64,000 bases of DNA from Stappia sp. 28M-7 (lineage in GTDB: Bacteria > Pseudomonadota > Alphaproteobacteria > Rhizobiales > Stappiaceae), in the NCBI RefSeq assembly GCF_014252955.1, contig NZ_JACMIA010000001.1:3866258-3930257 (forward strand), in the 5' to 3' direction. Shown here in pieces: positions 10,630 through 26,453 of the stretch (position 1 is its first letter; the number at the start of each line of letters is the position of its first letter). The position numbers were made by a program, and so were the translations under genes. The notes beneath the pieces were generated by a model. That model made no database searches and had not been told where the DNA came from. It saw nothing but the letters and a program-made list of their open reading frames with translations.

Positions 10630-10634
10630 GGATC

Positions 10635-11534: not shown

Positions 11535-11540
11535 GTCGGA

Positions 11541-12458
11541 TCAGCCCACCCGGATGCGCGGATCGAGCCAGGCATTGACCAGATCCGACAGGAACGTGAA
11601 GACGATGTAGAACAGCGAGAAGATCAGGATCAGCGCCTGCACGGTCGGCAGGTCGTTGCGGGCGATCGACTCCCAGGCGAGATAGCCGGCGCCATGCAGG
11701 GCGAAGATGGACTCCACGACGATCGAGCCGCCCAGCATGAAGCCCATCTGCACGGCGGCGAGGCTGACCACCGGCACCACCGCGTTGCGCAGCGCATGCT
11801 TGAACATCACCCGCGTCTCGCTGGCGCCCTTGGCGCGCGCGGTGCGGATGTAGTCGGCGTTGAGCACCTCCAGCATGCCGGCGCGCGTCAGGCGCATGAT
11901 CGCCGGCATGGCGTAATAGCCGAGCACGACGGTCGGCATGATGAAGTGCTTCCAGGTCGCCGAGCCGGACGGCGGCAGCCAGCCGAGCTGGATCGAGAAG
12001 ACGACGATCAGCACCAGGCCGAACCAGAAGCTCGGCATCGCCTGGCCCATCACCGACAGGAACAGCGCGGTGCGGTCGATCAGCGAGTTCGGGCGCATCG
12101 CCGCGGCAACGCCGAGCGGAATGGCGGTGACCAGCGCGAAGGAGATGCCGCACACGCCGAGCAGCATCGTCGTCGACAGGCGCTCGCCGATCAGCTGGGC
12201 GACCGGGACGCGGAAATAGTAGCTCTGCCCGAAATCGCCCGACAGCGCCCCGAACAGCCAGTCGGCATATTGCACGAGGAAGGGCCGGTCGAAGCCGTAG
12301 AGGACGCGGATCGCCTCGATGTCGGTGGCGGACGCGTTCTCGCCGGCAATGGCCGAGGCCGGATCGCCGGACATGAACAGCAGGCTGAAGCTCAGCAGCG
12401 ACACGGTGAAGGTCACCAGAATGGCGAGCCCCAGCCGTTTCAGGGTGAACATAAGCAT
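11541..12458 (-). CDS. Peptide ABC transporter permease, DppB type
   Basis: A 305-residue permease with an N-terminal membrane anchor (LKRLGLAILVTFTVSLLSFS) and the family block YGFDRPFLVQYADWLFGAL, then about five further membrane segments and the loop RTARAKGASETRVMFKHALR. Two in-frame ATGs, 12458 and 12452, are possible; the first is taken. It is separated from the binding-protein gene by a 175-base spacer containing a strong hairpin, the only large gap in this operon. Confidence 0.9.
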   Translation of the reverse strand: MLMFTLKRLGLAILVTFTVSLLSFSLLFMSGDPASAIAGENASATDIEAIRVLYGFDRPFLVQYADWLFGALSGDFGQSYYFRVPVAQLIGERLSTTMLLGVCGISFALVTAIPLGVAAAMRPNSLIDRTALFLSVMGQAMPSFWFGLVLIVVFSIQLGWLPPSGSATWKHFIMPTVVLGYYAMPAIMRLTRAGMLEVLNADYIRTARAKGASETRVMFKHALRNAVVPVVSLAAVQMGFMLGGSIVVESIFALHGAGYLAWESIARNDLPTVQALILIFSLFYIVFTFLSDLVNAWLDPRIRVG

Positions 12459-12587
12459 CTCGGGTTCCGATCGTCAGGCGGCCGCGGCACGCGGGGGCGG
12501 AGCGAAACGGGCTCGCCAATACCCGGAAGACCGCGCTCCCTTGCGGGGTGCGGACGGCCGGTCACGGCAAGCTGCGAAAGGCACGAT

Positions 12588-12618
12588 CCGCGCCCGGCGA
12601 GAGGAAGGCCGGGCGCGG
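12588..12618 (-). terminator. Hairpin directly behind the peptide-binding-protein gene
   Basis: An 11-base perfect GC-rich stem with a 9-base loop begins 15 bases after the binding-protein stop codon. No T run follows, so it is more likely an mRNA-end stabiliser or partial terminator that favours binding-protein synthesis over the downstream permeases. Confidence 0.55.
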
Positions 12619-12633
12619 GTCGCGGCTTGGCGC

Positions 12634-14148
12634 TTAGTTCCAGCGAACGTGGAAGAAGCGCACGACCTCGTCCGGGGTCGGGGTGAAGGTGGCCTCCTTC
12701 GTGAACACGTAGTTCGCGTTGTAGGAGAACAGCGGCACCCAGTAGGCCTCGTCGGCGATCTTGTTCAGCGCCTTGGAGTAGTTCTCCTTGCGCACTGCCG
12801 GATCGACCGAGGTGTCGGCGACGTTGAGCCACTCCAGGACCTCGTCGTCACGGGCGAAGTCTTCCTTGCCGTGCTTGAAGAACTGGCTGGTGATCGCCGA
12901 GGCGTCGTTGACCGAGTAGGAGCCCCAGGTCTGGAAGCTCATGCTGGTCTCGCCCTTGTGGCGCATGTCGCGCAGGGCCGAGTACTGCAGGAACTTCAGG
13001 TTGGCCTGGATGCCGACATTGGCGAGGTAGGACAGCATCGCCTCGGCATAGGGACGGTCGCGATAGGCGTAGAAGTCGACCGAGAAGCCTTCCGGATAGC
13101 CGGCTTCCGCGAGCAGGGCCTTGGCCTTCTCCGGGTCGAACTCGTACTTGGTCACGTCCACATCGCAGCCGAACTGGCTCGGGAAGCAGGCCGAGTGCAC
13201 GACCTTCGAGGCGCCCTTGAGCAGGTTGTCGACGATGGCCTGGCGGTCGATCGCATGGGCGATGGCCTGACGCACCTTGGTCTTGGTCATCGGGTTGTCG
13301 GCGCCGCTGCGGCCCGCAGCGTCGAGCTCCAGATAGCCGACGCGCATGGTGCTCTCGTTGACCACGTTGACGCGGTCCATCATCGCCAGCTTCTCGGCCT
13401 GATCGGCCGGGACGCCCCAGATGAAGTCGAGGCCACCACTGAACAGCTCGGCGAGCTGGGTGTTGACGTCGGGAATGGTGCGGATGTCGATGGTGCCGAT
13501 GCTCGCCATGCCCTTCGGGCCGCCGTGATAGCCCTCGTACTTCTTCAGCACGAAATGCTTTCCGGGCTCGACGCTCTCGACCTGGTAGGGACCGGTGCCG
13601 ACCGGCTTCAGCGCCATGCCGGCGGGACCGGCCTCGGCGTAATACTCGTTCGGATAGATCGAGACCGGACCGGCGAGATACTCGAGCGCGGCCGGGAACG
13701 GGCCATTGGTGAAGATGCGGACGGTGTACTTGTCGACCTTTTCCGCGCCCTTCATCCAGTTGACGTTGCGCTGGACGACGACGCCGTTCTCCGGCTTGGC
13801 GACGAACTCGACCGTGTAGACCACGTCGTCGGCGTCGAACTCCTCACCGTTGTGGAACTTGACGCCCTCGCGCAGCTTCAGCTCCAGCGTGGTGTCGTCG
13901 ACCCAGGTCCAGGAGGTCGCGAGGTTGCCCTCGTACTCGCCGGTCTCCTGGTTGAGATAGAGCAGGCCGTCCCAGATGGACCGCTGCAGGATCACGCCCT
14001 CGCGGGCGGAATTGAAGTAGCTGTCGACCGATTCCAGTTCCTTGGTGAAGGCGGCGTTCAGCGTGTCATTGGCCTTGTCGGCCATGGCGCTGCCGGCAGT
14101 CATGACGACGGCCAGGGCAACGGTGCTCATCAGGAGGCGTGTCTTCAT
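12634..14148 (-). CDS. Family 5 peptide ABC substrate-binding protein
   Basis: A 504-residue periplasmic protein with signal peptide MKTRLLMSTVALAVVMTAGS, cleaved near AMA at residue 24. The mature part shows the family 5 (DppA/OppA/GsiB) pattern: REGVILQRSIWDGLLYLNQE, WTWVDDTTLELKLREGVKFH, and PVGTGPYQVES near the middle. Full length for the family. Start 14148 is chosen because the signal peptide begins there. It supplies ligand to the DppBCDF-type importer, and the downstream gamma-glutamyltransferase suggests glutathione-like peptides. A divergent IclR gene lies 177 bases away. Confidence 0.92.
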   Translation of the reverse strand: MKTRLLMSTVALAVVMTAGSAMADKANDTLNAAFTKELESVDSYFNSAREGVILQRSIWDGLLYLNQETGEYEGNLATSWTWVDDTTLELKLREGVKFHNGEEFDADDVVYTVEFVAKPENGVVVQRNVNWMKGAEKVDKYTVRIFTNGPFPAALEYLAGPVSIYPNEYYAEAGPAGMALKPVGTGPYQVESVEPGKHFVLKKYEGYHGGPKGMASIGTIDIRTIPDVNTQLAELFSGGLDFIWGVPADQAEKLAMMDRVNVVNESTMRVGYLELDAAGRSGADNPMTKTKVRQAIAHAIDRQAIVDNLLKGASKVVHSACFPSQFGCDVDVTKYEFDPEKAKALLAEAGYPEGFSVDFYAYRDRPYAEAMLSYLANVGIQANLKFLQYSALRDMRHKGETSMSFQTWGSYSVNDASAITSQFFKHGKEDFARDDEVLEWLNVADTSVDPAVRKENYSKALNKIADEAYWVPLFSYNANYVFTKEATFTPTPDEVVRFFHVRWN

Positions 14149-14190
14149 CTGCTCATTCAACCGGCGCGGCACCGGTCCCTCTGGTTTTCG

Positions 14191-14223
14191 ATTATTATAT
14201 AATAATACGTTTGACCGTATTAT
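14191..14223. promoter_or_regulatory. Two adjacent palindromes between peptide operon and IclR gene
   Basis: The perfect palindrome ATTATTATATAATAAT (14191-14206) is followed and overlapped by the perfect inverted repeat ATAATACG-N6-CGTATTAT (14202-14223). Both lie in the divergent control region, 43 bases or more from the binding-protein start. They are very AT-rich compared with the surroundings. Likely IclR operators and/or the promoter core; binding is inferred. Confidence 0.6.
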
Positions 14224-14325
14224 GGTTGAGCGTATTGTCCAGTTTGGAACGTGTCAAGAATCCAAACCTCACGCTATCCGCAAGATTCTTGCGCGAAAGA
14301 CGGAACGAAGGAACAGGGGAGGTCT

Positions 14326-15102
14326 ATGCCGAAGGGAAAGCAGGACACTTTGTTCGTCGGCTCGCTCGACAAGGGCTTGCGGGTGCTTAGCCTGTTCAAC
14401 GAGCACAACACGGTGCTGGGCCTGACCGAGATCGCCGAGCTGACGGGCCTCGACAAGAGCGCGGCGCAGCGGCTGACCAACACGCTGCACAAGACGGGCT
14501 ACCTCAACAAGGACCCGGAATCGCGGCGCTACAGCCCCTCCATCAAGTTCCTGGAGCTGGGCAACGCCTATCAATGGGCCGACCCGCTGGTGCAGCTCGC
14601 CATGCCCAAGGCGATCGAGCTCGGCCGCACGCTCGGCGAACGGGTCAACGTGGCGCGGCTCGCCGGCCAGGAGATCGTCTACGTCATCCGCATCCCGACC
14701 CAGCTCACCGCCTTCGGCGCGATGGTGGCCGGGCGCCGGCTGTCGGCGCTGACCACCTCGAGCGGGCGGGCCATGATCGCAAGGCTGAGCGAGGCCGAGC
14801 GCAAGGAGGCGGTCGAGACCTGGCCGATCAAGCCGCTGACGCCGAAGACGACGACGGACCGGAGCAAGATCGCCGAGGCCATCGAGGAGGCGGTCGCCTA
14901 TGGCTACGGGCTGACCCACAGCGAAAACATCATGAACGAGATCGGCATCGCCGCACCGATCATGTCCGGCGACGGCCGGCCCGTCGCCACGGTGCAATGC
15001 TCGGTTTCGAGCATGAAATGGAGTGTGGAGAGGGTGCGCGGGGAACTGGCCCCGCACCTGATCGAAGTCGCCAACTCGATCCACCTGCCGCGCGGCGCAT
15101 AG
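14326..15102 (+). CDS. IclR-family transcriptional regulator
   Basis: A 258-residue regulator. The N-terminal helix-turn-helix is GLTEIAELTGLDKSAAQRLT (about residues 33-52), preceded by LFVGSLDKGLRVLSLFNEHN. The C-terminal effector domain shows GERVNVARLAGQEIVYVIRI, TTSSGRAMIARLS and the terminal IGIAAPIM. The ATG at 14326 has GGGGAGG five bases upstream; an upstream in-frame ATG at 14251 lacks one and overlaps the control region. It is divergent from the peptide ABC operon, which it very probably controls, and convergent with the DUF1537 gene. Confidence 0.92.
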   Translation: MPKGKQDTLFVGSLDKGLRVLSLFNEHNTVLGLTEIAELTGLDKSAAQRLTNTLHKTGYLNKDPESRRYSPSIKFLELGNAYQWADPLVQLAMPKAIELGRTLGERVNVARLAGQEIVYVIRIPTQLTAFGAMVAGRRLSALTTSSGRAMIARLSEAERKEAVETWPIKPLTPKTTTDRSKIAEAIEEAVAYGYGLTHSENIMNEIGIAAPIMSGDGRPVATVQCSVSSMKWSVERVRGELAPHLIEVANSIHLPRGA

Positions 15103-15148: not shown

Positions 15149-16414
15149 TCAGGCGGCGAACCGGTCGAAGAGGTCGAGAGGGCCGACCTGCCCGCCCTTG
15201 AGCAGCAAGCGCATGCCCTCCAGCAGCGTGCCCGGCGCGTGGCCGCGGCATACGGCAACGCCGGAGCCGGCGCGCGCCTCGAAGGAGAGGCTGTCGAAGC
15301 CGAGCCGGCGCACCACCGCCCCCGAGGTATCGCCGCCGGCGACCGCCAACGCGGCAACGGGATGCAGCGCCAGGATGCGCGCGGCAAGCTCGGCAAGGCT
15401 TTCGGACAGCGCATCGGGCGCAAGACCGTAATCCGCCTCCGGATCGAGATGGGCGAGCACGTTGGTGCCGGCGGCCAGCATCTGCGCGCAGCGCGCGGCA
15501 CAGGCCTCCCGCCCCTCGCCCGCAATATCTTTCGCACCGAGCGGAAGGCGCGTGTAGCGCGATGCGGCAGCGACCTGGGCCGCCGTCGCCGCAGAACGGC
15601 TGCCGGCAAGCGCAAGGCGCGGCCCGGCAACCGGTCCGAGCGCCGAGGCACCGGACCCCGCTGCCGCTGCCTTGCCCGCAACCGCCTCAGCAACGCCGCT
15701 GGCCCCGACCAGCAGCAGCGGCCGGCCGTGGGTTTCCAGCAGCGACAGGGCAAGGCCCAGCATCTCGATATCCGTATCGTCGACCGCATCGACCAGCACG
15801 CGGCGCCCGCCGCCCTCGGCCATGGCCGCAAGAACGGCGGCGGCACCGGCAAGCTCGGGCCGCGCCAGCAGCGCCAGATCGCCGAGCCCCTGTGCCGCCA
15901 GATGCCGGCGCAGGTCCGCCTCGCCCATCGGCGTGACAGGATGCCGGCTCATCACCGGATGGCGGTCGATGCGATGCACCGCCCCGTCGGGCGCACGCGC
16001 GAACAGCGTGCCGAACAGGCAGAAGCGCTGCAGGCTGGGCTGGCCGCCGAGGATGACGGTGAGTGCCGGCGACAGCTCCTCCTCCAGCACGGCGACAGCC
16101 GCGCCGACATTGCCCACATGCGGGGCGGAATCGAAGGTGGAGCAGATCTTGTAGTGCACGAAACGGGGCTGGCGCGCGCGCACCATCGGCATCAGGGCGC
16201 GCAGGCGCGGCTCGACCGCCTGCGGCGCGCAGGCGCGAAAGTCCGTGGCGATGCCGACGGCCGGAAACGCCCCCTGCCCGCGCGGCGTCTCGGGCAGACG
16301 GGACAGCGAGGGCCCTTCCACGCACAGGCGGGCGGCGATGCCCGCCTCGGCCAGCGTCGCCAGCGTGTCGGACGCGCCGGTAAAATCGTCTGCGATGAAG
16401 ACGTAGCCGCTCAT
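15149..16414 (-). CDS. Four-carbon acid sugar kinase family protein (DUF1537), OiaK-like
   Basis: A 421-residue kinase of the DUF1537 family. The N-terminal domain has the sugar-acid site motif FIADDFTGASDTLATLAEAG (residues 6-25); the C-terminal nucleotide domain contains AGGDTSGAVVRRLGFDSLS. Family members phosphorylate sugar acids such as threonate, erythronate or 3-oxo-isoapionate with ATP. It begins 5 bases after the RuBisCO-like gene, and that pairing is known from 3-oxo-isoapionate kinase (OiaK) with the RuBisCO-like OiaX/OiaT, whose substrate is the phosphorylated product. PdxA2 or aldolase genes that accompany threonate kinases are absent here. The exact substrate is inference. Confidence 0.88.
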   Translation of the reverse strand: MSGYVFIADDFTGASDTLATLAEAGIAARLCVEGPSLSRLPETPRGQGAFPAVGIATDFRACAPQAVEPRLRALMPMVRARQPRFVHYKICSTFDSAPHVGNVGAAVAVLEEELSPALTVILGGQPSLQRFCLFGTLFARAPDGAVHRIDRHPVMSRHPVTPMGEADLRRHLAAQGLGDLALLARPELAGAAAVLAAMAEGGGRRVLVDAVDDTDIEMLGLALSLLETHGRPLLLVGASGVAEAVAGKAAAAGSGASALGPVAGPRLALAGSRSAATAAQVAAASRYTRLPLGAKDIAGEGREACAARCAQMLAAGTNVLAHLDPEADYGLAPDALSESLAELAARILALHPVAALAVAGGDTSGAVVRRLGFDSLSFEARAGSGVAVCRGHAPGTLLEGMRLLLKGGQVGPLDLFDRFAA

Positions 16415-16419
16415 GCCCG

Positions 16420-17718
16420 TTACCCGGCCTTTTTCCCGAAGAAGGAGAGCGCCCCGGCGAGCTCCGGCCGCGAGCTTGCTGCCTGTTCCAGATCCTCGTT
16501 CGCGGCCACCGCCTCCCACGCCTGGCGCAGGCTGGCGACACCAGCCGCCGGGCCCGAAGGATGGGCGAGGATGCCCCCGCCCGCCATGAACAGGAAGTCG
16601 CTGGACCCGGCCGCACACGCGGTCACCGGCAGGGTGCCGGCCCACTGGCCGGAGGAGAACGCGGGCATCACCGCATCCGAGGCATCCGGCGCATCAAGGG
16701 CGAGCGGCTGCAGGCAGCGGCGCGCTGCCTCCTCGACTTCCCGAGGTGCGTCGGAGAACTTGCCGCCGATGCCGTGCACATGCATGTGGTCGACGCCGGC
16801 AAGGCGATAGAGCGCCTGATAGGCGTCGAAGCCGATGCCGAGCAGCGGATGGCGGGCGAAGGCGCCGTAACCGTTGCGATGGCCATGCACGACGAGCGGC
16901 GTGGAGCGGCGCAGCGACTGCATCGCCGACAGTCCGCACCAGTTGAGGCTGGCCATGACGCAGGACCCGCCCTCGCGCTCCACCAGGTCCGCATGGCGGC
17001 GCATGGCGTCGAGCTCGTCGGTGATGTTGAAGGCGACCATGACAGTGCGACCGGTGCGCTCGCGATAGGCGCGCACCTGCGCCATCACCGCGCGAACGCG
17101 CTCCTCCAGCGGCGCATGGACCGGATCGGCGCAGATCTCGTCATCCTTGATGAAGTCGACGCCGGCCTCGCACAGATCCGCGACCAGCGCGGCGATCTCG
17201 TCGGCGCTCAGGCCAACATTCGGCTTGATGATGGTGCCGAAGAGCGGCCGGCCGGAGACGCCGAGCGCGGAACGGGTGCCGGCGACGCCATGCCGGGGCA
17301 TGTCGAAGCGGGTGCGATAAGCCTGCGGCAGGGCGACATCGACGAGGCGAAGGCCCGTGACCTCGCCGAGATCGTAGAGATTGCCGGCAACCGTTGCGGC
17401 AAGGGTCGGCAGGTTGGCGCCGACATTGGCGAGCGGATAGGCGATGCGCACCCGCGCGCGCCGCCAGGGACCGGACGTGCCCTGCCGCTCGAGCCAGGCG
17501 CTGGCAAGGCTCGGGGCGCTGGCCGGCTCCAGCTCTTCCACGACGAGAACCTCGGCGCCGGCACGGGCGCGCAGCTCGTCGCTCTCGCCGGCAACGCGCA
17601 CGAAGGTGCCGCAGCTCTGCTCGCCGGCCATGATCGCCGCGACCTTTTCCGGCGCGAGCGGCGTCTCGACCAGATAGGTCGCCTCGACGCTGTCGGGCTT
17701 TAGGGGGATCGTCCGCAT
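16420..17718 (-). CDS. RuBisCO-like protein, probable sugar-acid phosphate decarboxylase or hydrolase
   Basis: A 432-residue member of the RuBisCO large-subunit superfamily. The activation site is intact: FIKDDE gives the carbamate Lys191 with Asp193 and Glu194 as metal ligands. Lys165 in IIKPNVGLS matches the first catalytic Lys, although the usual KPK reads KPN. HGHRNG (about 278-283), GIGGKFSD (Lys320, loop 6 position) and MAGGGILAHPSGPAAG complete the site. It is therefore metal-dependent, unlike enolase-only or redox forms that have lost these residues. With a DUF1537 kinase behind it, the best match is OiaX/OiaT of D-apiose breakdown (3-oxo-isoapionate 4-phosphate decarboxylase or transcarboxylase/hydrolase). 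It is not expected to fix CO2; there is no small subunit or phosphoribulokinase nearby. Confidence 0.9.
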   Translation of the reverse strand: MRTIPLKPDSVEATYLVETPLAPEKVAAIMAGEQSCGTFVRVAGESDELRARAGAEVLVVEELEPASAPSLASAWLERQGTSGPWRRARVRIAYPLANVGANLPTLAATVAGNLYDLGEVTGLRLVDVALPQAYRTRFDMPRHGVAGTRSALGVSGRPLFGTIIKPNVGLSADEIAALVADLCEAGVDFIKDDEICADPVHAPLEERVRAVMAQVRAYRERTGRTVMVAFNITDELDAMRRHADLVEREGGSCVMASLNWCGLSAMQSLRRSTPLVVHGHRNGYGAFARHPLLGIGFDAYQALYRLAGVDHMHVHGIGGKFSDAPREVEEAARRCLQPLALDAPDASDAVMPAFSSGQWAGTLPVTACAAGSSDFLFMAGGGILAHPSGPAAGVASLRQAWEAVAANEDLEQAASSRPELAGALSFFGKKAG

Positions 17719-17726
17719 CGCGCGCC

Positions 17727-18266
17727 TCAGATCGAGGTGAGGTCGGGGAAGGGACGGACCGGATCGCTGCCGTCCCACCCTTCGGAGGCGGCGCGGATCA
17801 GGTCGAACATGCGGCCCTTCGGCCCCATCACCTCCGACAGCTCGATCACCGTGCCGGGATGGGCCTCGCGGTCGAAATAGGCAAAGCGTCCGTTGGCCCC
17901 GACCTTGCCGCTCATCTTCACGCGGAAGCCTTCGGCCTCCATGCGGGCGAGATCCGCATCGTAGGCTTGCGTCCAGTAGGCGACGTGCTGCAGCCCGCGA
18001 TGACCGGCAAGGCGGAAGTCGCGATACATCGACGGGGCGTCGTTGCGGGTCTGGATCAGCTCGACCTGAACCGGGCCGCTGTTGGCCAGCGCGACGGAAT
18101 TGTGGACCTCGAAGGACTGGCCGTCATAGCGGTAGTCCTCGATGGGCACCTTGGGATTGTAGTACCACGGGCCGACGCCCATGACCTTGCACCAATGCTC
18201 CATCGCCGCTTCGATGTCGTCGACCACGTAGCCGAGCTGGCGGATTGCGCCGAGAAACCTGCTCAT
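17727..18266 (-). CDS. VOC-superfamily (glyoxalase/dioxygenase fold) protein
   Basis: A 179-residue protein with the paired betaalphabetabetabeta modules of the VOC superfamily. IRQLGYVVDDIEAAMEHWCK starts module one and GLQHVAYWTQAYDADLARME starts module two; candidate metal ligands are the second-module His (GLQHVAY) and late Glu (GTVIELSEV). The usual first-module ligand position appears as GYVV without His, so a standard metal site is uncertain. Members are isomerases, epimerases, lyases or dioxygenases. It lies between the TRAP permease and the RuBisCO-like gene, so an isomerisation of the imported sugar acid or its oxidised form is possible. No specific reaction can be named. Confidence 0.8.
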   Translation of the reverse strand: MSRFLGAIRQLGYVVDDIEAAMEHWCKVMGVGPWYYNPKVPIEDYRYDGQSFEVHNSVALANSGPVQVELIQTRNDAPSMYRDFRLAGHRGLQHVAYWTQAYDADLARMEAEGFRVKMSGKVGANGRFAYFDREAHPGTVIELSEVMGPKGRMFDLIRAASEGWDGSDPVRPFPDLTSI

Positions 18267-18274
18267 GAAGAACC

Positions 18275-19552
18275 CTATTGCGAGAGAAGTCGGGGAAGCC
18301 ACGTCGACACCGCCGGCACGGCCGAGACGACCAGCAGCGACAGCGCGAGGGGCAGGAAGAAGGGCAGCACGCCGCGAATGACCGAGTGGACCGGCATCTT
18401 GGCGACGATGGAGACCATGTAGAGGCTCATGCCGATGGGCGGCGTCAGCAGCCCGATCATCAGATTGAGCACGAAGACGATGCCGAGCTGCAGCGGATCG
18501 ACGCCGGCCTGGTGCAGCGCCGGGGCGACGATGGGCGCGATGATCAGGATCGCCGCGATGGATTCCAGGAACATGCCGACGACGAGCAGCAGCAGGTTGA
18601 CCAGAAGCAGCAGCACCAGCGGATTGTCGGAGAGGCCCAGCAGCACCTGGCCGGCCATCGCCGGCACCTGGTCGAGCGTGAGCACCCAGGCGAAGACGGC
18701 CGCCGTCGACACGATGAAGAGGATGCCGGCGGTCGCCTCCACCGTCTCGCGCAGGCTCTCCCACACGGCGCTGAAGGTCAGCGTGCGGTAGACGAGGAAG
18801 CCGATGGCCAGCGCATAGGCGACCGTGACGCCGGCGACCTCCGTCGGACCGAAATAGCCGCTGAGCAGGCCGCCGATCAGGATCACCGGGGCGACCAGCG
18901 CCGGCAGCGAGATCACCGCCTTGCGGGCGACGGCGGAAAGCGACGGGCTGACCGTGTCGCGCGGCAGGTTGTAGATGCGCGCCATGACGGCGACCTGAAC
19001 CATCAGGAAGAGCGTGATCAGCAGCGCCGGCACGATGCCGGCGACCAGCAGCTGCACCGCCGAGACATTGGTGACGCTGGCATAGATGATCAGCGGGATC
19101 GAGGGCGGGAAGATCGGCCCGATGGTGGCCGCGGCGATGGTGATGCCGGCGGCAAAGTCGCGCCGGTAGCCCTGCCCCGACATCTGGTCGATCTGGATCT
19201 TGCCGAGCGCGCCGATATCGGCGAGCGCGGCGCCCGAGACGCCAGAGAAGATCAGGCTGACGAGGATCGACACCTGCGCGACCGCGCCGCGGATGCGCCC
19301 GACGACGAGGCGCACCAGGTCGAAGATATGGGTGGTGACGCCCATCGCGTTGAGGAGGCTGGCGGCCAGGATGAACAGCGGCACGGCCAGCAGCGGTGTG
19401 GAATCGAGCGCGTTGATGCCGCGCTGCGCCAGGACATGCACCGGCAGGTCGAAGCCGACGATGGCCACCGCCGAGGCAAGGCCGAGGGCAACGGCGATCG
19501 GCGCGCCGAGCAGCAGCGCGGCGGCGAAGACGAGGAGAAGCACGAGGCTCAT
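18275..19552 (-). CDS. TRAP transporter large permease, DctM type
   Basis: A 425-residue membrane protein with about 12 segments, normal for DctM. Typical blocks are GAPIAVALGLASAVAIVGFD at the N-terminus, SGVSGAALADIGALGKIQID, AATIGPIFPPSIPLIIYASV (about residues 135-155) and a late PIGMSLYMVSIVAKMP. It overlaps the DctQ-type gene by four bases (ATGA) and is followed 8 bases later by the VOC gene. It carries out sodium-driven uptake of the ligand delivered by the DctP-type protein. Confidence 0.94.
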   Translation of the reverse strand: MSLVLLLVFAAALLLGAPIAVALGLASAVAIVGFDLPVHVLAQRGINALDSTPLLAVPLFILAASLLNAMGVTTHIFDLVRLVVGRIRGAVAQVSILVSLIFSGVSGAALADIGALGKIQIDQMSGQGYRRDFAAGITIAAATIGPIFPPSIPLIIYASVTNVSAVQLLVAGIVPALLITLFLMVQVAVMARIYNLPRDTVSPSLSAVARKAVISLPALVAPVILIGGLLSGYFGPTEVAGVTVAYALAIGFLVYRTLTFSAVWESLRETVEATAGILFIVSTAAVFAWVLTLDQVPAMAGQVLLGLSDNPLVLLLLVNLLLLVVGMFLESIAAILIIAPIVAPALHQAGVDPLQLGIVFVLNLMIGLLTPPIGMSLYMVSIVAKMPVHSVIRGVLPFFLPLALSLLVVSAVPAVSTWLPRLLSQ

Positions 19553-20073
19553 GGCAGGGCCTGATCGGAACCGGGGAGCGTGTCGCCGCGCAGGAGGGCG
19601 AGAAGACGGGCAAGGGTGACAAGCGCCAGCAGCACCATGGCGACGATGGCGGGCGCGTAGAACACCCAGTTGGGAATGCCGAGGGTCGGGGTGGCGAATT
19701 TCCACGCCCGGCCGAGAAAACGGTAGAGCCCATAGAGAAAGAAGAGCGAGAAGGCGAGCACGCAGAGCTCGACCAGCACGCCGGTCCAGCGACGGGCGGG
19801 CGCCGGCAGCGTCATCGGCACCAGCTCCACCGCCACGTGCCGTCCCTGCAGCGCCAGCAGCGGCACGCAGAGAAAGACCAGCGCGACACCGCAGAAGCGG
19901 GCGAGCTCGTCCGCCCAGGGCATGCCGAGATCGAGAAGGTTGCGGCCGAGCACCTGGCCGACCACCAGCACGCTCATCGCCGCCAGCAACAGGACGGCGA
20001 GAGTGCGGCAGCATGCCGCCGCACCCGCAAGGAGCCTGCCGCCCGGCGGGACGGGTTCAGTCGTGCCGGTCAT
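19549..20073 (-). CDS. TRAP transporter small permease, DctQ type
   Basis: A 174-residue membrane protein with four segments (around residues 24-42, 60-78, 102-122 and 140-160). The DctQ-family pattern is visible as VVGQVLGRNLLDLGMPWADE and LLALQGRHVAVELVPMTLPA. It joins the binding protein to the large permease in TRAP systems. The stop overlaps the DctM-type start (ATGA), indicating coupling. Confidence 0.92.
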   Translation of the reverse strand: MTGTTEPVPPGGRLLAGAAACCRTLAVLLLAAMSVLVVGQVLGRNLLDLGMPWADELARFCGVALVFLCVPLLALQGRHVAVELVPMTLPAPARRWTGVLVELCVLAFSLFFLYGLYRFLGRAWKFATPTLGIPNWVFYAPAIVAMVLLALVTLARLLALLRGDTLPGSDQALP

Positions 20074-20103
20074 GGCCGCACCTCTCGCTCACTGTTCGGG
20101 CGA

Positions 20104-21123
20104 TCAGGAGATCGCCCGGATCTTCTCGTAGAGGGCACCGTATTTTTCGCCGAAGCGGGCGTCGACGACCTTGCTGACCGAGGCGCGGAAGGCCTCCACG
20201 TCGAGACCGTCCTCGGGGCCGATCACCGTCATGCCGGCATCGCGCAGCGCCTGGGTGTCCTTGGCCTCGTTGTCCTGGATCGCCCTGGTGGCGCGCTCGC
20301 GGATCTCCAGCGCGGCGGCGGCAACCGCCTCCTTCTGCGCCGGCGACAGGGCCTGCCAGGCGTCCTCGTTCATCACGACGACCTCGGCATTGGACATGTG
20401 GCCGGTCAGCATGAGATGCGACTGCACCTCGTAGAGCTTGACGTTGAGGATGACGTTGACCGGGTTCTCCTGGCCAGCGACGACGCCGGTGGCGAGCGCC
20501 GTCGGCACTTCCGACCAGTCGACCGGGACGGGCGCGGCGCCCATGCCCTCGATGGCGGCCTGGTAGATCGGGAAAGGCACGGCGCGGATCTTCTCGCCGG
20601 CAAGGTCGGCCGGCTTGTACACGGCCTTGTTGGCGGTGAGATTGCGGCGGCCGAAATAGTGGGCGTAGATCACACGGACATTCGCCGCCTGGATCAGGCC
20701 CTGGTTGAGCTCCTGCATCACCGGCGAATTGATGTCCATCACCTTCATCAGGTGGTCGACGTCGCGGTAGAGATAGGGCGTGTCGAGCGCGGCGAAGGGC
20801 TCATAGAGCGAACCGATGCCGCCGGCGGTGTTGTGCGAGAAGGCGATGGTGCCGAGCGAGACCGCCTCGGCCAGCTCCTGCAGCTTGCCGAGCTGGGAGG
20901 AGGGATAGACCTGCACGGCGATGTCGCCGCCCGAATGCTTGCCCACCGCCTCGGCGAACCAGTCGGCCTGGGCGCCGGCGACGCTGGCCGGCTCGTTGTT
21001 GTGGCCGTAGCGCAGGGTCACGGACTGGGCGCGGGCAAGGCCGGGCACCATGGCGAAGGCACCCGCGCCGAGACCGAGCGCAAGGGCGCCGCGCCGCGTG
21101 ACGGAAAACAGCTGTCTGGTCAT
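20104..21123 (-). CDS. TRAP transporter substrate-binding protein, DctP type
   Basis: A 339-residue periplasmic protein with an RR-containing signal sequence (MTRQLFSVTRRGALALGLGA, cleavage after ARA near residue 32). The mature part has VTLRYGHNNEPASVAGAQAD, GGDIAVQVYPSSQLGKLQEL and the conserved Arg region GEKIRAVPFPIYQAAIEGMG (about residues 180-200) that usually binds the ligand carboxylate. GGGAGGATGCA precedes ATG 21123. It begins the TRAP-VOC-RuBisCO-like-kinase operon, so the ligand is expected to be the sugar acid metabolised by those enzymes. Confidence 0.94.
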   Translation of the reverse strand: MTRQLFSVTRRGALALGLGAGAFAMVPGLARAQSVTLRYGHNNEPASVAGAQADWFAEAVGKHSGGDIAVQVYPSSQLGKLQELAEAVSLGTIAFSHNTAGGIGSLYEPFAALDTPYLYRDVDHLMKVMDINSPVMQELNQGLIQAANVRVIYAHYFGRRNLTANKAVYKPADLAGEKIRAVPFPIYQAAIEGMGAAPVPVDWSEVPTALATGVVAGQENPVNVILNVKLYEVQSHLMLTGHMSNAEVVVMNEDAWQALSPAQKEAVAAAALEIRERATRAIQDNEAKDTQALRDAGMTVIGPEDGLDVEAFRASVSKVVDARFGEKYGALYEKIRAIS

Positions 21124-21169
21124 TGCATCCTCCCAAGATGGTTTCAAGGCTCGTTATTTCGGTGAGCCA

Positions 21170-21282
21170 TGAGGTATTTTGACGGCCTTCACTCCATGAA
21201 GATCGCCGAAATCCGTATCTCTTGACAAAAGGCTACGAAGCCGTGAGCATCACGTCAAACATCAAATATTGAGGTATTTTGA
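21170..21282. promoter_or_regulatory. Direct repeats TGAGGTATTTTGA flanking the divergent control region
   Basis: The 13-mer TGAGGTATTTTGA occurs exactly at 21170-21182 and 21270-21282, 100 bases apart. The second copy is preceded by TCAAATAT, giving a near-dyad TCAAATA-N6-TATTTTGA. Spacing near ten helical turns suits a regulator that binds two sites and loops DNA. The obvious binder is the LacI-type product of the adjacent gene. TTGACA at 21222-21227 could be a -35 element. Confidence 0.55.
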
Positions 21283-21283
21283 G

Positions 21284-22339
21284 GTGCCCTCAGGAGAGAT
21301 CCAGCTCCCCTCCCAGATCCCTTCCATGGCGGACCTGGCCGAAGCGGCAGGCGTGTCGCTGGCAACCGTCGACCGGGTGCTGAACCGCCGCAAGGGGGTG
21401 AAGGAGCGCACGGTCGCCCGGGTGCTGGCCGCCGCCGTGGAGCTCGGCTACATGAGCGCGGAGGAGCGCGCGAAGCTGGACGGGCAGCGCCCGCCCAATG
21501 TCGCCTTCCTGCTGCCGATGGGCACCAACCCCTATCTGCGCCTGCTCGGCGAGAAGGTGCGCGCTGTCGCCGACACCCAGACCCGCGATGCCTGCCCCTT
21601 GCGCTGCTTCTTCATCGACAGTTTCGATGCCGGCGCGCTGGCCGCCGCGCTGCGCCACCACGCCCGCTGGGCCGACGGCATAGCCTTCATGGCCATCGAC
21701 CACCCCTTGGTGCGCGAGGCGGCGGAAGAGGTGAGCGCGGCCGGCACCCGGCTCGTCACCATCGTCTCCGACCTGCCGCATCCGGCGCGCGAGACCTATG
21801 TCGGGCTCGACAACCAGGCGGCCGGGCGCACCGCCGCCCTGCTGCTCGGCCGGTTCTGCGGCGCACGCGAGGGCAGCGTCGCGCTGGTCGCCGGCAGCCG
21901 CACCTACCGCGCCCATGCGGAACGCGAGATGGGCTTTCTCGGCCTGCTGGAAGAAGCCTATCCGGACCTGAGGATCGTCGGCATGCGCGAGGGCCACGAC
22001 GACCGCAACGAGAACTACAACCACACCCGCTCGCTGCTGGAGCAGAACCCGGATCTCGTCGGCATCTACAATGTCGGCGGCTCGTCCGACGGCATCGCAA
22101 GGGCACTCGCCGAAAAAGGCATGGGCGAGCGGGTGGTGTTCATCGGCCACGGCCTGACCCAGGACACCCGCCGCCTGCTGATCGAGGGCACGATGGACGC
22201 GGTGATCAACTCCGACCCGGACCAGGTGATCGGCGAGACGCTGGCCCGCTTCGCCCGTCCGGCCGAGGCCGCGGGGCTGCGCCCGCCGCTGAAGATGGAC
22301 CTGATCTTCCGCGAGAACATCCCCTCGCAATATCTTTAA
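21284..22339 (+). CDS. LacI-family regulator with sugar-type (Peripla_BP_4) effector domain
   Basis: A protein of about 351 residues. The helix-turn-helix is MADLAEAAGVSLATVDRVLN, with the hinge helix VLAAAVELGYMS; the rest is a periplasmic-sugar-binding-like domain (PNVAFLLPMGTNPYLRLLGE ... GIYNVGGSSDGIARALAEKG). No ATG suits the family start: an ATG at 21326 would cut into the first helix, whereas GTG 21284 and TTG 21269 keep it; GTG is preferred with GAGG 9 bases upstream. One copy of the TGAGGTATTTTGA repeat overlaps this start, pointing to autoregulation. It probably controls the divergent TRAP/RuBisCO-like operon, with the imported sugar or a metabolite as effector. Confidence 0.88.
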   Translation: MPSGEIQLPSQIPSMADLAEAAGVSLATVDRVLNRRKGVKERTVARVLAAAVELGYMSAEERAKLDGQRPPNVAFLLPMGTNPYLRLLGEKVRAVADTQTRDACPLRCFFIDSFDAGALAAALRHHARWADGIAFMAIDHPLVREAAEEVSAAGTRLVTIVSDLPHPARETYVGLDNQAAGRTAALLLGRFCGAREGSVALVAGSRTYRAHAEREMGFLGLLEEAYPDLRIVGMREGHDDRNENYNHTRSLLEQNPDLVGIYNVGGSSDGIARALAEKGMGERVVFIGHGLTQDTRRLLIEGTMDAVINSDPDQVIGETLARFARPAEAAGLRPPLKMDLIFRENIPSQYL

Positions 22340-22541: not shown

Positions 22542-22733
22542 ATGGGTATCGAGGTGGGGGGCCTGCTCGGCCTCGTCATTCTGGTTCTGGACGTTTACGC
22601 CATCGTCAAGATCATCGGCTCGGGCGCCTCCACGCTCGCTAAGGTCATCTGGATCGTGCTCATCCTGGCCCTGCCCGTTCTTGGCTTCCTCGTGTGGCTC
22701 GTGGCGGGTCCGTCGCGCCCGGCAACGGCCTGA
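22542..22733 (+). CDS. Small PLDc_N-domain membrane protein
   Basis: A 63-residue protein with two membrane segments (residues about 4-24 and 34-56), the second ending LALPVLGFLVWLVAGPSRP. This is the phospholipase D nuclease N-terminal-type (PLDc_N) membrane domain found alone in many small bacterial proteins; there is no catalytic domain. AAGGAG lies 8 bases before the ATG. An exact EcfG-type promoter upstream makes it a likely general-stress protein. Molecular role unknown. Confidence 0.85.
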   Translation: MGIEVGGLLGLVILVLDVYAIVKIIGSGASTLAKVIWIVLILALPVLGFLVWLVAGPSRPATA

Positions 22734-22789
22734 TTCAGGCCTGTCACCGCCCCACGCAATTCGTATCGGCAAAAAGTTCAAGGCCAGGT

Positions 22790-22814
22790 GGAACCAAATC
22801 CTCACTGGTGCGTT
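22790..22814 (+). promoter_or_regulatory. EcfG-type promoter of nepR1-ecfG1, GGAAC-N16-CGTT
   Basis: Exact consensus 33 bases before the nepR1 start, so the anti-sigma/sigma pair is probably under its own or the paralogous EcfG control (positive autoregulation). Confidence 0.8.
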
Positions 22815-22847
22815 GTCGGTGCGGAGCTGAAGAAGGATTTGCTGCCT

Positions 22848-23042
22848 ATGCTAAATTACAGCGAGAAACCCCGGAACGGAGAGCCGCCCAAAGCCTCGGA
22901 CACCGACGTCCACTCTCGCATCAGCAATCAGCTGCAAACCTACTACAACGAGGTGCTGACCCAGCCTCTGCCCCAAAGGTTCGAGGATCTGCTGAAACGT
23001 TTGGACGAACAGAGCGGTTCCGAGGGGGAGGCCCGGTCATGA
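22848..23042 (+). CDS. nepR: NepR-family anti-sigma factor (copy 1)
   Basis: A 64-residue protein with the NepR core SRISNQLQTYYNEVLTQPLP followed by QRFEDLLKRLDEQ. NepR binds and blocks EcfG sigma factors until phosphorylated PhyR removes it. ATG 22848 is chosen; AAGGA lies upstream and an exact EcfG-type promoter 33 bases before it. Its stop overlaps the sigma gene start (ATGA), the usual coupling. A second nepR-ecfG pair lies at 27.9-28.6 kb. Confidence 0.92.
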   Translation: MLNYSEKPRNGEPPKASDTDVHSRISNQLQTYYNEVLTQPLPQRFEDLLKRLDEQSGSEGEARS

Positions 23043-23617
23043 ACGAGCACAGTCTCGAGCTGAAAGACGAGATGGTGTCCTGCATTCCCAGCCTGCGCGC
23101 CTTCGCGGCGTCGCTGGTGGGGATGGGCGACCGCGCCGACGATCTGGTCCAGGAAGCCCTGATGAAGGCCTGGTCCAACCTCGGCCGCTTCGAGCCGGGC
23201 ACCAACATGAAGGCCTGGCTGTTCACGATCCTGCGCAACACGCTCTACTCGACGCATCGCAAGCGCAAGCGCGAGGTGCAGGACGTGGACGGACGCTACT
23301 CGGCAACGCTCGCCTCCCATCCGAATCAGACGGGTCATCTCGACCTCGACGACTTCTGCCGGGCGCTCGACCAGCTCCCCGACGACCAGCGTGAAGCGCT
23401 GATCCTCATTGGTGCTTCCGGCTTTTCTTATGAGGAAGCTGCTGAAATTTGCGGTTGTGCCATCGGCACGGTAAAAAGTCGCGTCAACCGCGCCCGTGCC
23501 CGGCTGGCCGACATCATGGGGACAGAGTCGACGAGCGAGTTCGGACCGGATCGAGCCGTGGAAGCTGTTCTCGCCCTCTCTCCCGCCTCGACGGTGAAGA
23601 TCAGTGCCATGGAGTAA
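23039..23617 (+). CDS. ecfG: EcfG-family general stress sigma factor (copy 1)
   Basis: A 192-residue ECF sigma factor. Region 2 includes RADDLVQEALMKAWSNLGRF and the -10 contact segment NMKAWLFTILRNTLYSTHRK; region 4 is the EcfG-typical LPDDQREALILIGASGFSYE with EEAAEICGCAIGTVKSRVNR. It directs RNA polymerase to GGAAC/CGTT promoters, several of which lie in this cluster. It overlaps the nepR gene in front and the histidine kinase gene behind. A C-terminal extension of about 25 residues distinguishes it from the second copy. Confidence 0.93.
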   Translation: MNEHSLELKDEMVSCIPSLRAFAASLVGMGDRADDLVQEALMKAWSNLGRFEPGTNMKAWLFTILRNTLYSTHRKRKREVQDVDGRYSATLASHPNQTGHLDLDDFCRALDQLPDDQREALILIGASGFSYEEAAEICGCAIGTVKSRVNRARARLADIMGTESTSEFGPDRAVEAVLALSPASTVKISAME

Positions 23618-25256
23618 ATTGCCGCCCAACAGCACCCGGCTCGATCGACGGCTGTTCGCCCATATCGCGGCAGCCCTGATCCCCCTTGCCGCTCTTGCCT
23701 TCCTGCTGTCCTACTCCGATCTCGAGCGACGCTCCCAGGATGAACACCGACGCTTCCTGGACTATGCCCGCCTCATCGGACAGTCCAGCGCGAAGGCAAT
23801 TGCGCGTGCTGAAGGCTATGCAAGCGCCCTGACCTCCCTGGACCCGCAGGCCCTGGGAGAGTGCCGGCGCGTATTCTCCGCCATGCGCGAGGACCTGATC
23901 GAGGCGACGGAGCTCACCATCTTCCGCGGCGAGGCGACGATCTGCGCCATCGGCCTGGGCGAAGACGGCAAGATGATCCAGCGCCAGCTCGACGCGCCGA
24001 GCGAGGCCGTCACCGGCCCCGCCGCCAAGACGATCACCATCTCCCGCACCAACGAGGCCAACGGAACCCGCATCGACATCGGCCTGCGGCCGCAGACGCT
24101 GCTGATCGCCCCGATCACCGCGACCGCGGCGACGAATATCGGCTTTGCCCTGGTCGACAAGAACAGCGCGGTGCTCGCCTCCCATGTCTATGAGGAGAAC
24201 GACATCGGCAGCTTCCTGCAGGTGGTCGGCGAGACGCGTGCGGACGGGGCGGATTTTTCCGAAAGCGACAGCGGCTGGTTCATCGGCTCCAGCGTGCTGC
24301 CGGGCACCGAGTACCGGGTGGTCACCGCCAGCCGGCCATCGGAGCACCGGCTGGAACTGTGGCTCACGGTGCTGCGCGCCCTGCTGCCGCCGCTCATCCT
24401 GCTGGCGGTGGTTTTCGTGGTTCTGCGCTACGGCATCCAGCGGTTCCTGCTGCGCTATCTCAGCCACATCTATTCGACCTTCCGCCAATACGGCACCGGC
24501 AACACGCGCGCGCGCGTCGGCCAGCTGGCGGCCGCACCGCCCGAGATCGACCTCCTGGGCGTGACCTTCGACATGATGGCCGACCGCATCGAACGGCGCA
24601 CCCACGACACCGAGGCCGCGCTGGCCGAACAGCGCCGCCTCAGCCGCGAATTGCATCACCGCATCAAGAACACCCTTCAGATGATCATCAGCCTGGTGAG
24701 CATGCAGCGGCGCGATGCGACGGGCCCGCGCGAAAAAGCGGCCCTGCGGGTGACGCTGGAACGGATCCTGGCGATCTCCGCCGCCTATCGCGTCTCCTAC
24801 GCCTCGACCGAGGGCACCAACGTGGCACTGACCGCCCTGGTGCATGAAGTGGTGGAGGCCTTGCGCGGACCGGCATTGCTGCCGCAGGGCCGGGTCCGGA
24901 TCCAGACCAATGCGGGCGCCAACGCGGCGGAGATCGATCTCGACCGCGCGATTCCGCTCGCCTTCATCCTGGCCGAGCTGCTGCCGCCACGGTTCGACTG
25001 CCTGCTGCCGGGAGAGGTCCTCACCATAGAGCTGACCGGGGCCGACAGGATCGCCATGGTGATTTCCGGCGCCAGCCAGATCAACGACACGCTGGACGGC
25101 AACGAGACGGGCACACCCGCCTCGCTGCGCTCGCGCCTGGTCCATGCCTATCTGCATCAGCTCGACGCGACCTGCGGCATGGAAGACGCCATGGCGCGGC
25201 TGGAGATCCCGCTGCACCCGGTTCCCGGGCCGCAGGCGTCTGCCTCCATGCACTGA
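23604..25256 (+). CDS. HisKA_2-type sensor protein with degraded ATPase domain, PhyR-pathway regulator
   Basis: A 550-residue membrane sensor: membrane segments at about residues 17-37 and 252-276 enclose a periplasmic domain, then a HAMP-like linker and the HisKA_2 box LSRELHHRIKNTLQMIISLV with His352. The ATPase domain looks broken. Where kinases have an N box (HELxxNAxKH), this protein reads LAFILAELLPPRFDCLLPGE with no Asn, and the G1 DxGxG is replaced by SGASQINDTLDGN. It may therefore act as a PhyR phosphatase or phosphotransfer partner and not as a kinase. GTG 23604 overlaps the ecfG1 end by 14 bases; TTG 23619 is an alternative. Cotranscribed with nepR1-ecfG1. Confidence 0.85.
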   Translation: MPWSKLPPNSTRLDRRLFAHIAAALIPLAALAFLLSYSDLERRSQDEHRRFLDYARLIGQSSAKAIARAEGYASALTSLDPQALGECRRVFSAMREDLIEATELTIFRGEATICAIGLGEDGKMIQRQLDAPSEAVTGPAAKTITISRTNEANGTRIDIGLRPQTLLIAPITATAATNIGFALVDKNSAVLASHVYEENDIGSFLQVVGETRADGADFSESDSGWFIGSSVLPGTEYRVVTASRPSEHRLELWLTVLRALLPPLILLAVVFVVLRYGIQRFLLRYLSHIYSTFRQYGTGNTRARVGQLAAAPPEIDLLGVTFDMMADRIERRTHDTEAALAEQRRLSRELHHRIKNTLQMIISLVSMQRRDATGPREKAALRVTLERILAISAAYRVSYASTEGTNVALTALVHEVVEALRGPALLPQGRVRIQTNAGANAAEIDLDRAIPLAFILAELLPPRFDCLLPGEVLTIELTGADRIAMVISGASQINDTLDGNETGTPASLRSRLVHAYLHQLDATCGMEDAMARLEIPLHPVPGPQASASMH

Positions 25257-25461
25257 CCGCAGGGCGCTTACGGCTGCGCGGCGCGGCAACCCGGGAACGC
25301 CGCGCGCGCTGCTTCCCACACCCCAGCCTCTCAGCCATGCCCCACAACCATATGGCGTGCCCTCGAGCGCGCCTTTGCTTGCAGCCGATGGGACAGCCCG
25401 TCGGCTGCGAGCGTTTCGGCCGGCAGGAATCGCACGGGCCAGAGCCCCCGGTACCAGCCAC

Positions 25462-25496
25462 AAAAAAGGCGCCGCGGGAGGGAGGCCCCGCGGCGC
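25462..25496 (-). terminator. Rho-independent terminator behind the DUF1328 gene
   Basis: A 10-base GC stem (25469-25478 with 25487-25496) flanked by AAAAAA on its left, which is a T run for the minus strand. It lies 70 bases beyond the DUF1328 stop and also separates the kinase transcript. Nothing else is recognisable in 25257-25564. Confidence 0.75.
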
Positions 25497-25564
25497 AGAA
25501 AGCAGACGGACAAACGAGGGAGGAGTGAGCAGGCCGCCTGCGTCGACAGGTCGATCGGCCGCAA

Positions 25565-25744
25565 TCAGACCGTCGGAGGACGACGGCCGCTGATCAGGCC
25601 ATAGACCAGCGAAATCACGAAGAGGATGATCGCCACGACGAAAATCAGCTTGGCGATGCCCATGGCCGTACCGGCAATGCCGCCAAAGCCCAACACCGCC
25701 GCGATAAGCGCGACAACCAGGAAGGTCAGAGCCCAACCAAACAT
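25565..25744 (-). CDS. DUF1328 small membrane protein
   Basis: A 59-residue protein with two membrane helices ([20 protein letters not shown] and [20 protein letters not shown]), matching the DUF1328 family common in proteobacteria and often stress-induced. AAGGAG is located 7 bases before ATG 25744. I found no GGAAC/CGTT promoter in front of it, so its link to the EcfG regulon rests on location only. Confidence 0.88.
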
Positions 25745-26453
25745 GTTATTTCTCCTTTGAACAGCTTCCCGATTGCCGCGAACTTTCTTGGCGGAACCGG
25801 TACTCATGTCCCATGCGGTGGCAAGAACGGGCCGATTACTGAAGCAACCCCACTTGCCTTACGCTTGCACCATCGTGCATGGTCATGAAGTCAACCCACC
25901 AGCGGCGAATTTGTTCAATCTGATCTGAACTTTTTTGAAGGGCCGCCGCTCCCGTCTTGCAGAGCACCGTTTTTCCGCGCCCAGGACAGCCGGCCTTCGA
26001 GGCACGGCGCGGGCGTCTTTCATGCGCTTTCGGCCTTGCGGATTTTTCCTGGCGCCCGTTTTCGCCCCCTCGACCCTCGCATACCGGCCCGCCGGTTCCT
26101 TGATCGGATTTTTTGCCGCCGGCGTTTTTCCCAAAACGGCGATCTCAAAAAAATATCGCGGCAAAAAACATCCCGCCGGAACGGGGGCGAGACGGGTCCC
26201 CCTATACGCGCGTGTATCGCGCGCGCGTGCGCGCGTTCCTCTTACAGGCCGGCGCAACCACGATGACGGCAAGGCATCGCCAGGACATCAGGCGAAAAAG
26301 AAAAGCACACGTAAAAATCGAAAAATCGGGAACGCGGCCGGAACCTTTCTCCCGCGAGAGGGTTCTTCTACCGTGACCGGAACGAAACCTGAGCCGAACC
26401 CAAGATCGGCACGCAGGTTGGGTCACAAGCCAACAAATCAGGAGACTAAAGAC
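25745..26453. other. 709-base spacer without a convincing gene
   Basis: Open frames run through this stretch but none has family features, codon pattern or a ribosome site. It contains an alternating pyrimidine-purine tract of CG/CA/TA steps at about 26204-26232 (possible left-handed DNA) and the EcfG-like promoter at 26340-26364. A small RNA cannot be excluded. Confidence 0.5.
26340..26364 (+). promoter_or_regulatory. EcfG-like promoter, GGAAC-N16-GGTT
   Basis: GGAAC and GTT match; the first base of the -10 box differs (GGTT for CGTT). It is 90 bases before the PRC-barrel gene. Confidence 0.6.

Follow-up and report, generated by a model that had tools for sequence, protein, structure and literature searches.

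We analysed a window of 64,000 nucleotides from Stappia sp. 28M-7 (contig NZ_JACMIA010000001.1, positions 3,866,258 to 3,930,257), in which a RuBisCO-like protein (RLP), a DUF1537 kinase, an enzyme of the vicinal oxygen chelate (VOC) superfamily and a tripartite ATP-independent periplasmic (TRAP) importer are encoded together. An earlier note on this DNA had described a coupled operon with a divergent LacI gene, and the list of open reading frames together with family scans bears this out: six genes follow each other on the minus strand in the order DctP-DctQ-DctM-VOC-RLP-DUF1537, and LacI reads divergently on the plus strand. All seven genes lie at the place and on the strand described there and match the expected families, namely DctP, DctQ, DctM, Glyoxalase_4 (VOC), RuBisCO_large, SBD_N/NBD_C (DUF1537) and LacI. 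The features are:

15149..16414, minus strand: DUF1537 kinase (SBD_N 165.7 bits, NBD_C 69.2 bits; OiaK model 212.4 bits, cut-off 700)
16420..17718, minus strand: RLP, placed in clade A by tree and residues (RuBisCO_large 215 bits; OiaX model 391.9 bits, cut-off 700; solved relative 3nwr 652 bits)
17727..18266, minus strand: VOC-fold enzyme with ligands Q10, E69, H94 and E142 (Glyoxalase_4 88.2 bits; structure model with a predicted local distance difference test score, pLDDT, of 92)
18275..19552, minus strand: DctM, TRAP large permease (PF06808 361.8 bits; dctM model 373.4 bits, above cut-off)
19549..20073, minus strand: DctQ, TRAP small permease (PF04290 96.7 bits)
20104..21123, minus strand: DctP, TRAP binding protein of type 1 (PF03480 200.2 bits; best solved relative 4p9k, only 149 bits)
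21170..21182, plus strand: putative LacI operator copy 1, TGAGGTATTTTGA (exact repeat)
21270..21282, plus strand: putative LacI operator copy 2, TGAGGTATTTTGA (exact repeat, 100 nt from copy 1)
21326..22339, plus strand: LacI-family regulator, divergent (LacI 48.3 bits, Peripla_BP_4 131.8 bits)

DctP and DctQ are separated by 30 nt, DctQ and DctM overlap by 4 nt, and the gaps that follow measure 8 nt (DctM-VOC), 8 nt (VOC-RLP) and 5 nt (RLP-DUF1537). Between LacI and DctP the window holds two exact copies of TGAGGTATTTTGA. The LacI start had previously been placed at 21269; since operator copy 2 sits at 21270 we prefer, by judgement, the ATG at 21326. In the LacI-DctP gap of relatives TGAKGNNTTTTGA occurs at least once in 69 of the 85 with a readable gap and at least twice in 29, while the backward control gave 0/85. 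The Stappia genome itself contains three operator-like sites (backward control 0), two in the window and one inside a coding frame that reads as a tRNA methyltransferase, and the latter was rejected as a regulon member for this reason. Because this is the only other genomic site, the putative regulon consists of the window operon alone, so that three enzymes and an importer should suffice, as the earlier note had guessed. A promoter and terminator scan returned nothing useful.

We then read 90 neighbourhoods of related genes, made up of 10 plasmid loci (302 plasmid records had a match) and 80 genome-contig loci out of 373 relatives found. VOC, RLP and DUF1537 are adjacent in 90/90, which is not chance and answers the concern that their adjacency might not be conserved in relatives. 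LacI is present in 89 loci, the remaining one being a contig end. Identity to the window genes ranges from 63 to 97% for RLP, 65 to 97% for VOC, 36 to 93% for DUF1537 and 42 to 95% for LacI; among named relatives the RLP is closest to that of Stappia indica (97%). The hosts, many of them soil and marine bacteria, include Stappia, Mesorhizobium, Azospirillum, Bosea, Variovorax, Paraburkholderia, Sulfitobacter and Paracoccus. In further genome samples, which share some species with the 90 loci, VOC and kinase stood beside the RLP in 14/14 clade-A loci of the order and in 5/5 new loci of the phylum. One more distant RLP of the phylum sample (L209, 50% identical) lacks a VOC gene in the 1.5 kb on either side.

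Clustering of the genes in the 90 loci revealed no extra conserved gene at a constant place outside Burkholderiaceae that might mark a missing step, with the limit that the gene caller was partial (RLP called in 80/90, VOC in 62/90) and a small gene could escape. The widest clusters outside the cassette were a common ABC-ATPase family at scattered positions (19 loci) and an Lrp gene (18 loci, 17 of them in Burkholderiaceae and one elsewhere); all others reached at most 9 loci. The comparison supports a pathway to which the VOC enzyme is integral and in which no further dedicated enzyme is conserved. We consider it very probable that the pathway is self-contained, with three enzymes and an importer. 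LacI, importer, VOC, RLP and DUF1537 travel together, and the three enzymes with their importer have the look of a catabolic unit that is both complete and mobile. A short-chain dehydrogenase/reductase (SDR) gene was seen between LacI and DctP on a Neorhizobium plasmid (L049, 4593-5399), alone among the 10 plasmid loci; it may allow a more reduced precursor to be used by way of an additional oxidation.

The importer is exchangeable. In the 90 loci we counted 32 TRAP systems of the window's type 1, 54 of a type 2, 3 ATP-binding cassette (ABC) systems and 1 locus cut by a contig end. Type 2 has a fused DctQM and a DctP only 26-31% identical to that of the window. In L097, L115 and L117 (about 5200-8450) the genes read as a polar-amino-acid-type ABC transporter in place of TRAP. 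Transfer of a ligand from solved binding proteins to type-1 DctP was abandoned, as there is no close solved relative (4p9k being the best). Type-2 DctP matches the solved protein 4oan with 448 bits in a cassette locus and 402 bits in an alternative locus described below; its ligand was likewise not transferred, the 4oan gene lying in a locus devoid of VOC, kinase or RLP. This ligand is presumably acetolactate. PMC5812351 gives 2-acetolactate among the TRAP ligands of the Enzyme Function Initiative (EFI) with no PDB code beside it. The structure model of type-2 DctP was poor (pLDDT 63) and was not used for reading the binding site.

The class of the RLP was determined with a FastTree phylogeny of 149 distinct RLPs, rooted at the midpoint. 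The VOC-linked sequences, including that of the window, form a monophyletic clade A (104 sequences, support 0.97), nested (0.76) with RLPs that we call ApnO-type, 10 of whose 16 loci have ApnO at a distance of no more than 1.5 kb. OiaX forms a separate monophyletic clade with support 1.0 (25 sequences from 25 genomes, 758-791 bits on the OiaX model). Three known identities were rejected for the window RLP: OiaX (NF042437, 391.9 bits against a threshold of 700, and a place outside the OiaX clade), MtnW (TIGR03332, 135.4 against 513.6) and bona fide RuBisCO (type III model TIGR03326, 243 against 497, and KPN instead of KPK). The clustering with MtnW or another clade of known unrelated function that would have spoken against the pathway was thus not found, the protein scoring 135 bits on MtnW and standing apart from the 25 OiaX.

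As previously noted, the RLP carries K191, D193, E194 and K320 and reads KPN (165-167) in place of KPK. In all 104 sequences of clade A we found K165, K191, D193, E194, H280, R281, H313, K320 and N113 retained. N113, H313 and K320 we take, by numbering, to be the equivalents of N123, H327 and K334 of RuBisCO, N123 and H327 presumably being carboxylase residues. RuBisCO-type residues for CO2 addition (N113, H313, K320) are therefore present throughout the clade, whereas the linkage to ApnO expected of OiaT is absent: no ApnO lies in the operon, and only the cassette genes are conserved across the 90 loci. Clade A and the ApnO-type RLPs both keep N113 and H313, where OiaX has G and Q in 25/25, which favours OiaT-like chemistry over plain decarboxylation. 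From these residues we predict decarboxylation, re-addition of CO2 and hydrolysis; the ApnO-type group is probably OiaT-type. Confined to clade A are N167, F/Y284, H315, G319 and T362. At position 284 clade A has F or Y in 104/104 and the ApnO-type and OiaX proteins have W in 43/43, so that room would be left for an extra carbon.

In the VOC enzyme Q10, E69, H94 and E142 are invariant in 93/93 cassette VOCs and in 10/10 VOCs from alternative loci, matching the pattern Q/H-E-H-E of a glyoxalase-I-type metal site; the set Q-E-H-E is presumably that of human glyoxalase I. The first metal position, formerly regarded as an atypical feature, is Q10 and hence no defect, and the solved relative 3gm5 also has Q there. 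The AlphaFold model is of good quality (pLDDT 92). A role as methylmalonyl-CoA epimerase was rejected (TIGR03081, 21.1 bits against a threshold of 115), although the nearest folds are epimerases. Proton transfer beside a carbonyl is the chemistry that such folds have in common. The enzyme is predicted to be a carbonyl-shifting isomerase rather than an epimerase, and we see an even chance that it acts as an isomerase ahead of kinase and RLP.

Both Pfam domains of the kinase score above cut-off (SBD_N 165.7 against 25 bits, NBD_C 69.2 against 28.3), which places it in the DUF1537 superfamily. Assignment as OiaK was rejected (NF042436, 212.4 bits, threshold 700), and the 3-oxo-tetronate kinase (OtnK) model also stays below its cut-off (164 of 350 bits). 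By analogy with OiaK the kinase is predicted to phosphorylate the CH2OH group of a branched 3-oxo acid.

Further information on the substrate came from loci in which the VOC enzyme occurs in other company. A search for VOC homologues in 397 genomes of the order gave 47 matches in 45 genomes, and 20 places were examined. In ten of them (L166-L168, L170-L175, L183) VOC and TRAP are accompanied by a PdxA-family gene and/or by an OiaK-like DUF1537, a DeoR gene and a class I aldolase of the DhnA type; the full set is found in 8, L171 being cut by a contig end and L166 carrying the PdxA-family gene only. In L166, L167 and L168 a LacI-TRAP-VOC arrangement stands beside the PdxA-family gene without any RLP, and two of the three add the OiaK-like kinase and a DhnA/LsrF-like aldolase. 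Their DctP (77-79% identical to the window) and VOC (74-75%) nest inside the cassette trees and an operator-like site is present, so these three loci probably handle the cassette substrate without an RLP. The seven other alternative loci have a type-2 DctP that is sister to the cassette type-2 DctP. Outside these ten, VOC and TRAP type 2 are accompanied in L169 by an RLP that is 56% identical and has ApnO-type residues, and by a kinase scoring 551 bits on OiaK. L165 (genome G206) shows LacI, TRAP and VOC with no kinase or RLP in 16 kb, and adjoins an isopropylmalate/tartrate-dehydrogenase-like gene and a lactonase-like gene. The remaining 8 places hold VOC relatives in other settings. In a separate locus (L201) we observed a TRAP type 2 paralogue, an SDR, an OiaK-like kinase, an ApnO-type RLP and a second SDR, possibly a further branched-sugar pathway.

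The Stappia genome also encodes a second RLP, 47% identical to that of the window, which shares its contig at a distance of 3.8 Mb and has a DUF1537 of its own. An ApnO-like gene (PGDH_C family) reads divergently from this pair (L003, contig C1, 96000-114000). The oxidoisomerase reported as missing is thus indeed missing from the window operon, but not from the genome. Nearby lie a tartrate dehydrogenase (536 bits, above cut-off) and, from reading of the frames, an aldehyde dehydrogenase and another TRAP set, as well as further regulators and transporters. This region looks like an apiose-type arrangement, which would make the window operon a parallel system.

Taken together, we see nearly an even chance that the cassette is a self-contained catabolic route for one small branched sugar acid via VOC, DUF1537 and an OiaT-type RLP, and we think a branched 3-oxo acid phosphate rather probable as the compound handled by kinase and RLP. 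The comparison supports a sugar-acid pathway akin to the 3-oxo-isoapionate branch of apiose breakdown, as proposed in the earlier note. In the proposed route TRAP would import the branched acid, perhaps one derived from plant cell walls. The VOC enzyme would shift the carbonyl by one carbon via a metal-bound enediolate, converting the 3-C-carboxy-aldose OHC-CH(OH)-C(OH)(COOH)-R to the 3-oxo acid HOCH2-CO-C(OH)(COOH)-R, whose CH2OH group would be phosphorylated by DUF1537 in the fashion of OiaK. The RLP would then receive a look-alike of ribulose 1,5-bisphosphate (RuBP) with COOH on C3, decarboxylate it, re-add CO2 at C2 and hydrolyse the product as an OiaT-type enzyme, yielding 3-phosphoglycerate and R-COOH. 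This mechanism would explain why the window operon needs no redox enzyme.

With R = CH2OH the intermediate would be 3-oxo-isoapionate and the second product glycolate; with R = CH(OH)CH3 the imported compound would be L-aceric acid and the second product lactate. Aceric acid is 3-C-carboxy-5-deoxy-xylose. It is a sugar of pectin rhamnogalacturonan-II (RG-II), as mentioned in PMC12168206 and PMC6353982. A substrate usable by both the RLP and the PdxA-family routes needs a carboxylate, a carbonyl and a beta-hydroxyl after the VOC and kinase steps, and the phosphate derived from aceric acid, POCH2-CO-C(OH)(COOH)-CH(OH)CH3, would have all three. In the sister route PdxA-family oxidation and decarboxylation would turn it into 3-hydroxy-2,4-pentanedione-5-phosphate, which is the LsrF substrate according to the name of the LsrF model, and an LsrF-like thiolase would split this to dihydroxyacetone phosphate (DHAP) and acetyl-CoA. 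L-aceric acid is our best candidate for the substrate, if on balance an unlikely one, and the pair of routes, one via VOC, kinase and RLP to 3-phosphoglycerate and lactate and its PdxA/LsrF-like sister to DHAP and acetyl-CoA, is put forward just as tentatively.

Several observations weigh against this proposal. Many of the hosts come from marine habitats, and near the cassette we saw no pectin gene. The solved relative of type-2 DctP, 4oan, comes from a locus of a different make-up, as mentioned above. The window DUF1537 is distant from OiaK (212 of 700 bits). In structure comparison of the VOC model, 3gm5 and methylmalonyl-CoA epimerases rank nearest and glyoxalases lower. In the alternative loci VOC differs at H55/N56 in 7/10, and the aldolase, with 134 of 297 bits, does not reach the cut-off for LsrF and is nearer to other DhnA aldolases (190.7 bits; MJ0400 128 against LsrF 90 bits). 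Weak support comes from the second RLP, which is commoner in cassette-bearing genomes, in counts that include the Stappia genome itself and ignore kinship: 5/5 against 2/9 in the genus sample (p 0.021; 4/4 with the own genome left out), 7/14 against 52/383 in the order (p 0.0017; 6/13) and 2/7 against 16/391 in the phylum (p 0.035; 1/6). A count by genera in the order sample (4/9 against 19/132, p 0.039) was not used as it mixes same-genome and same-genus counts.

The same pathway might serve a smaller C5 import, either 3-C-carboxy-tetrose or 3-oxo-isoapionate, with the operon supplying extra OiaK and OiaT enzymes that lead to 3-phosphoglycerate and glycolate. The gene set of L169, with its ApnO-type RLP and high-scoring OiaK-like kinase, and the nesting of clade A with the ApnO-type RLPs both point this way. 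The residues confined to clade A and the low OiaK score of the window kinase suggest a different substrate, however, and the genome already carries an ApnO-linked set, so we regard a C5 substrate as unlikely. A linear acid would require the VOC enzyme to isomerise or epimerise a 2-oxo or 3-oxo aldonate, DUF1537 to phosphorylate C4 and the RLP merely to decarboxylate, for example to DHAP. Epimerases are indeed the nearest VOC folds, and the 3-oxo-tetronate kinase model gives 164 bits, but the window kinase scores higher on OiaK (212 bits), and replacement of the RLP by a PdxA-family oxidation fits a linear 3-oxo acid poorly. Since kin of the RLP moreover use a branched substrate (PMC6302742), we consider this quite unlikely.

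An oxygenase reaction, in which the RLP splits a phosphorylated ketose with O2 as in the reported hamamelose pathway of Ochrobactrum anthropi, appears very unlikely. PMC10176493 lists oxygenations among RLP reactions, and the RLP pathway of Kim et al. 2018, as cited in PMC8914248, ends in 3-phosphoglycerate and glycolate; yet hamamelose assimilation genes surround the Ochrobactrum RLP in the latter source, and none of this kind is conserved around the cassette.

Beyond the 3' end of the operon (8624-15102) the frames of the window read as genes for a peptide-type ABC transporter, a binding protein and an IclR regulator. On the other side (22694-31595) we noticed two sigma-70-like factors, a response regulator with a sigma-like part and histidine-kinase-like genes, which read as a general stress response region.

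If the proposed branched-acid route is correct, it would add another branch to the catabolism of the RuBisCO superfamily: a near-complete RuBisCO active site would be turned to carboxylation chemistry on a substrate bringing its own CO2. It would also give the solved structure 3nwr a testable job, a VOC enzyme a new type of role and a pectin sugar a possible fate. The new parts are the VOC step and the substrate, sugar-acid pathways with DUF1537 and RLP being already known. In the literature searched (titles and abstract openings) we found no description of a VOC-RLP-DUF1537 cassette, no function assigned to 3nwr or clade A RLPs and, in the parts available, no bacterial breakdown of aceric acid.

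Among known systems, D-apiose breakdown by OiaK and OiaT (3-oxo-isoapionate-4-phosphate transcarboxylase/hydrolase) resembles the window in that a DUF1537 kinase adjoins an RLP and N113, H313 and K320 are as in the ApnO-type RLPs, the group on which this comparison rests as a named OiaT sequence was absent from our RLP set. For the RLPs from Agrobacterium radiobacter and Xanthobacter autotrophicus, PMC6302742 gives decarboxylation, or transcarboxylation/hydrolysis, of 3-oxo-isoapionate-4-phosphate. The window operon differs by its VOC enzyme, its separate RLP clade and the lack of ApnO or another dehydrogenase. With OiaX (3-oxo-isoapionate-4-phosphate decarboxylase) it shares the pairing of DUF1537 and RLP and a common ancestry; the score on the OiaX model and the G and Q of OiaX at N113 and H313 set the two apart. 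DUF1537 pathways for threonate and erythronate employ the isomerase OtnI, the kinase OtnK and the decarboxylase OtnC. The order of isomerase, DUF1537 kinase and decarboxylase is alike, but in the cassette VOC replaces OtnI, RLP replaces OtnC and the OtnK model stays below cut-off. The D-hamamelose RLP of Ochrobactrum anthropi likewise ends a branched-sugar pathway giving 3-phosphoglycerate, according to PMC8914248; it is surrounded by other assimilation genes, whereas the window cassette has VOC and kinase only. A solved counterpart is PDB 3nwr, an RLP of Paraburkholderia xenovorans LB400 in the same clade as the window RLP: it matches the RLP of the LB400 locus (L091) nearly end to end, with 935 bits over 419 aa, and this locus carries the cassette.

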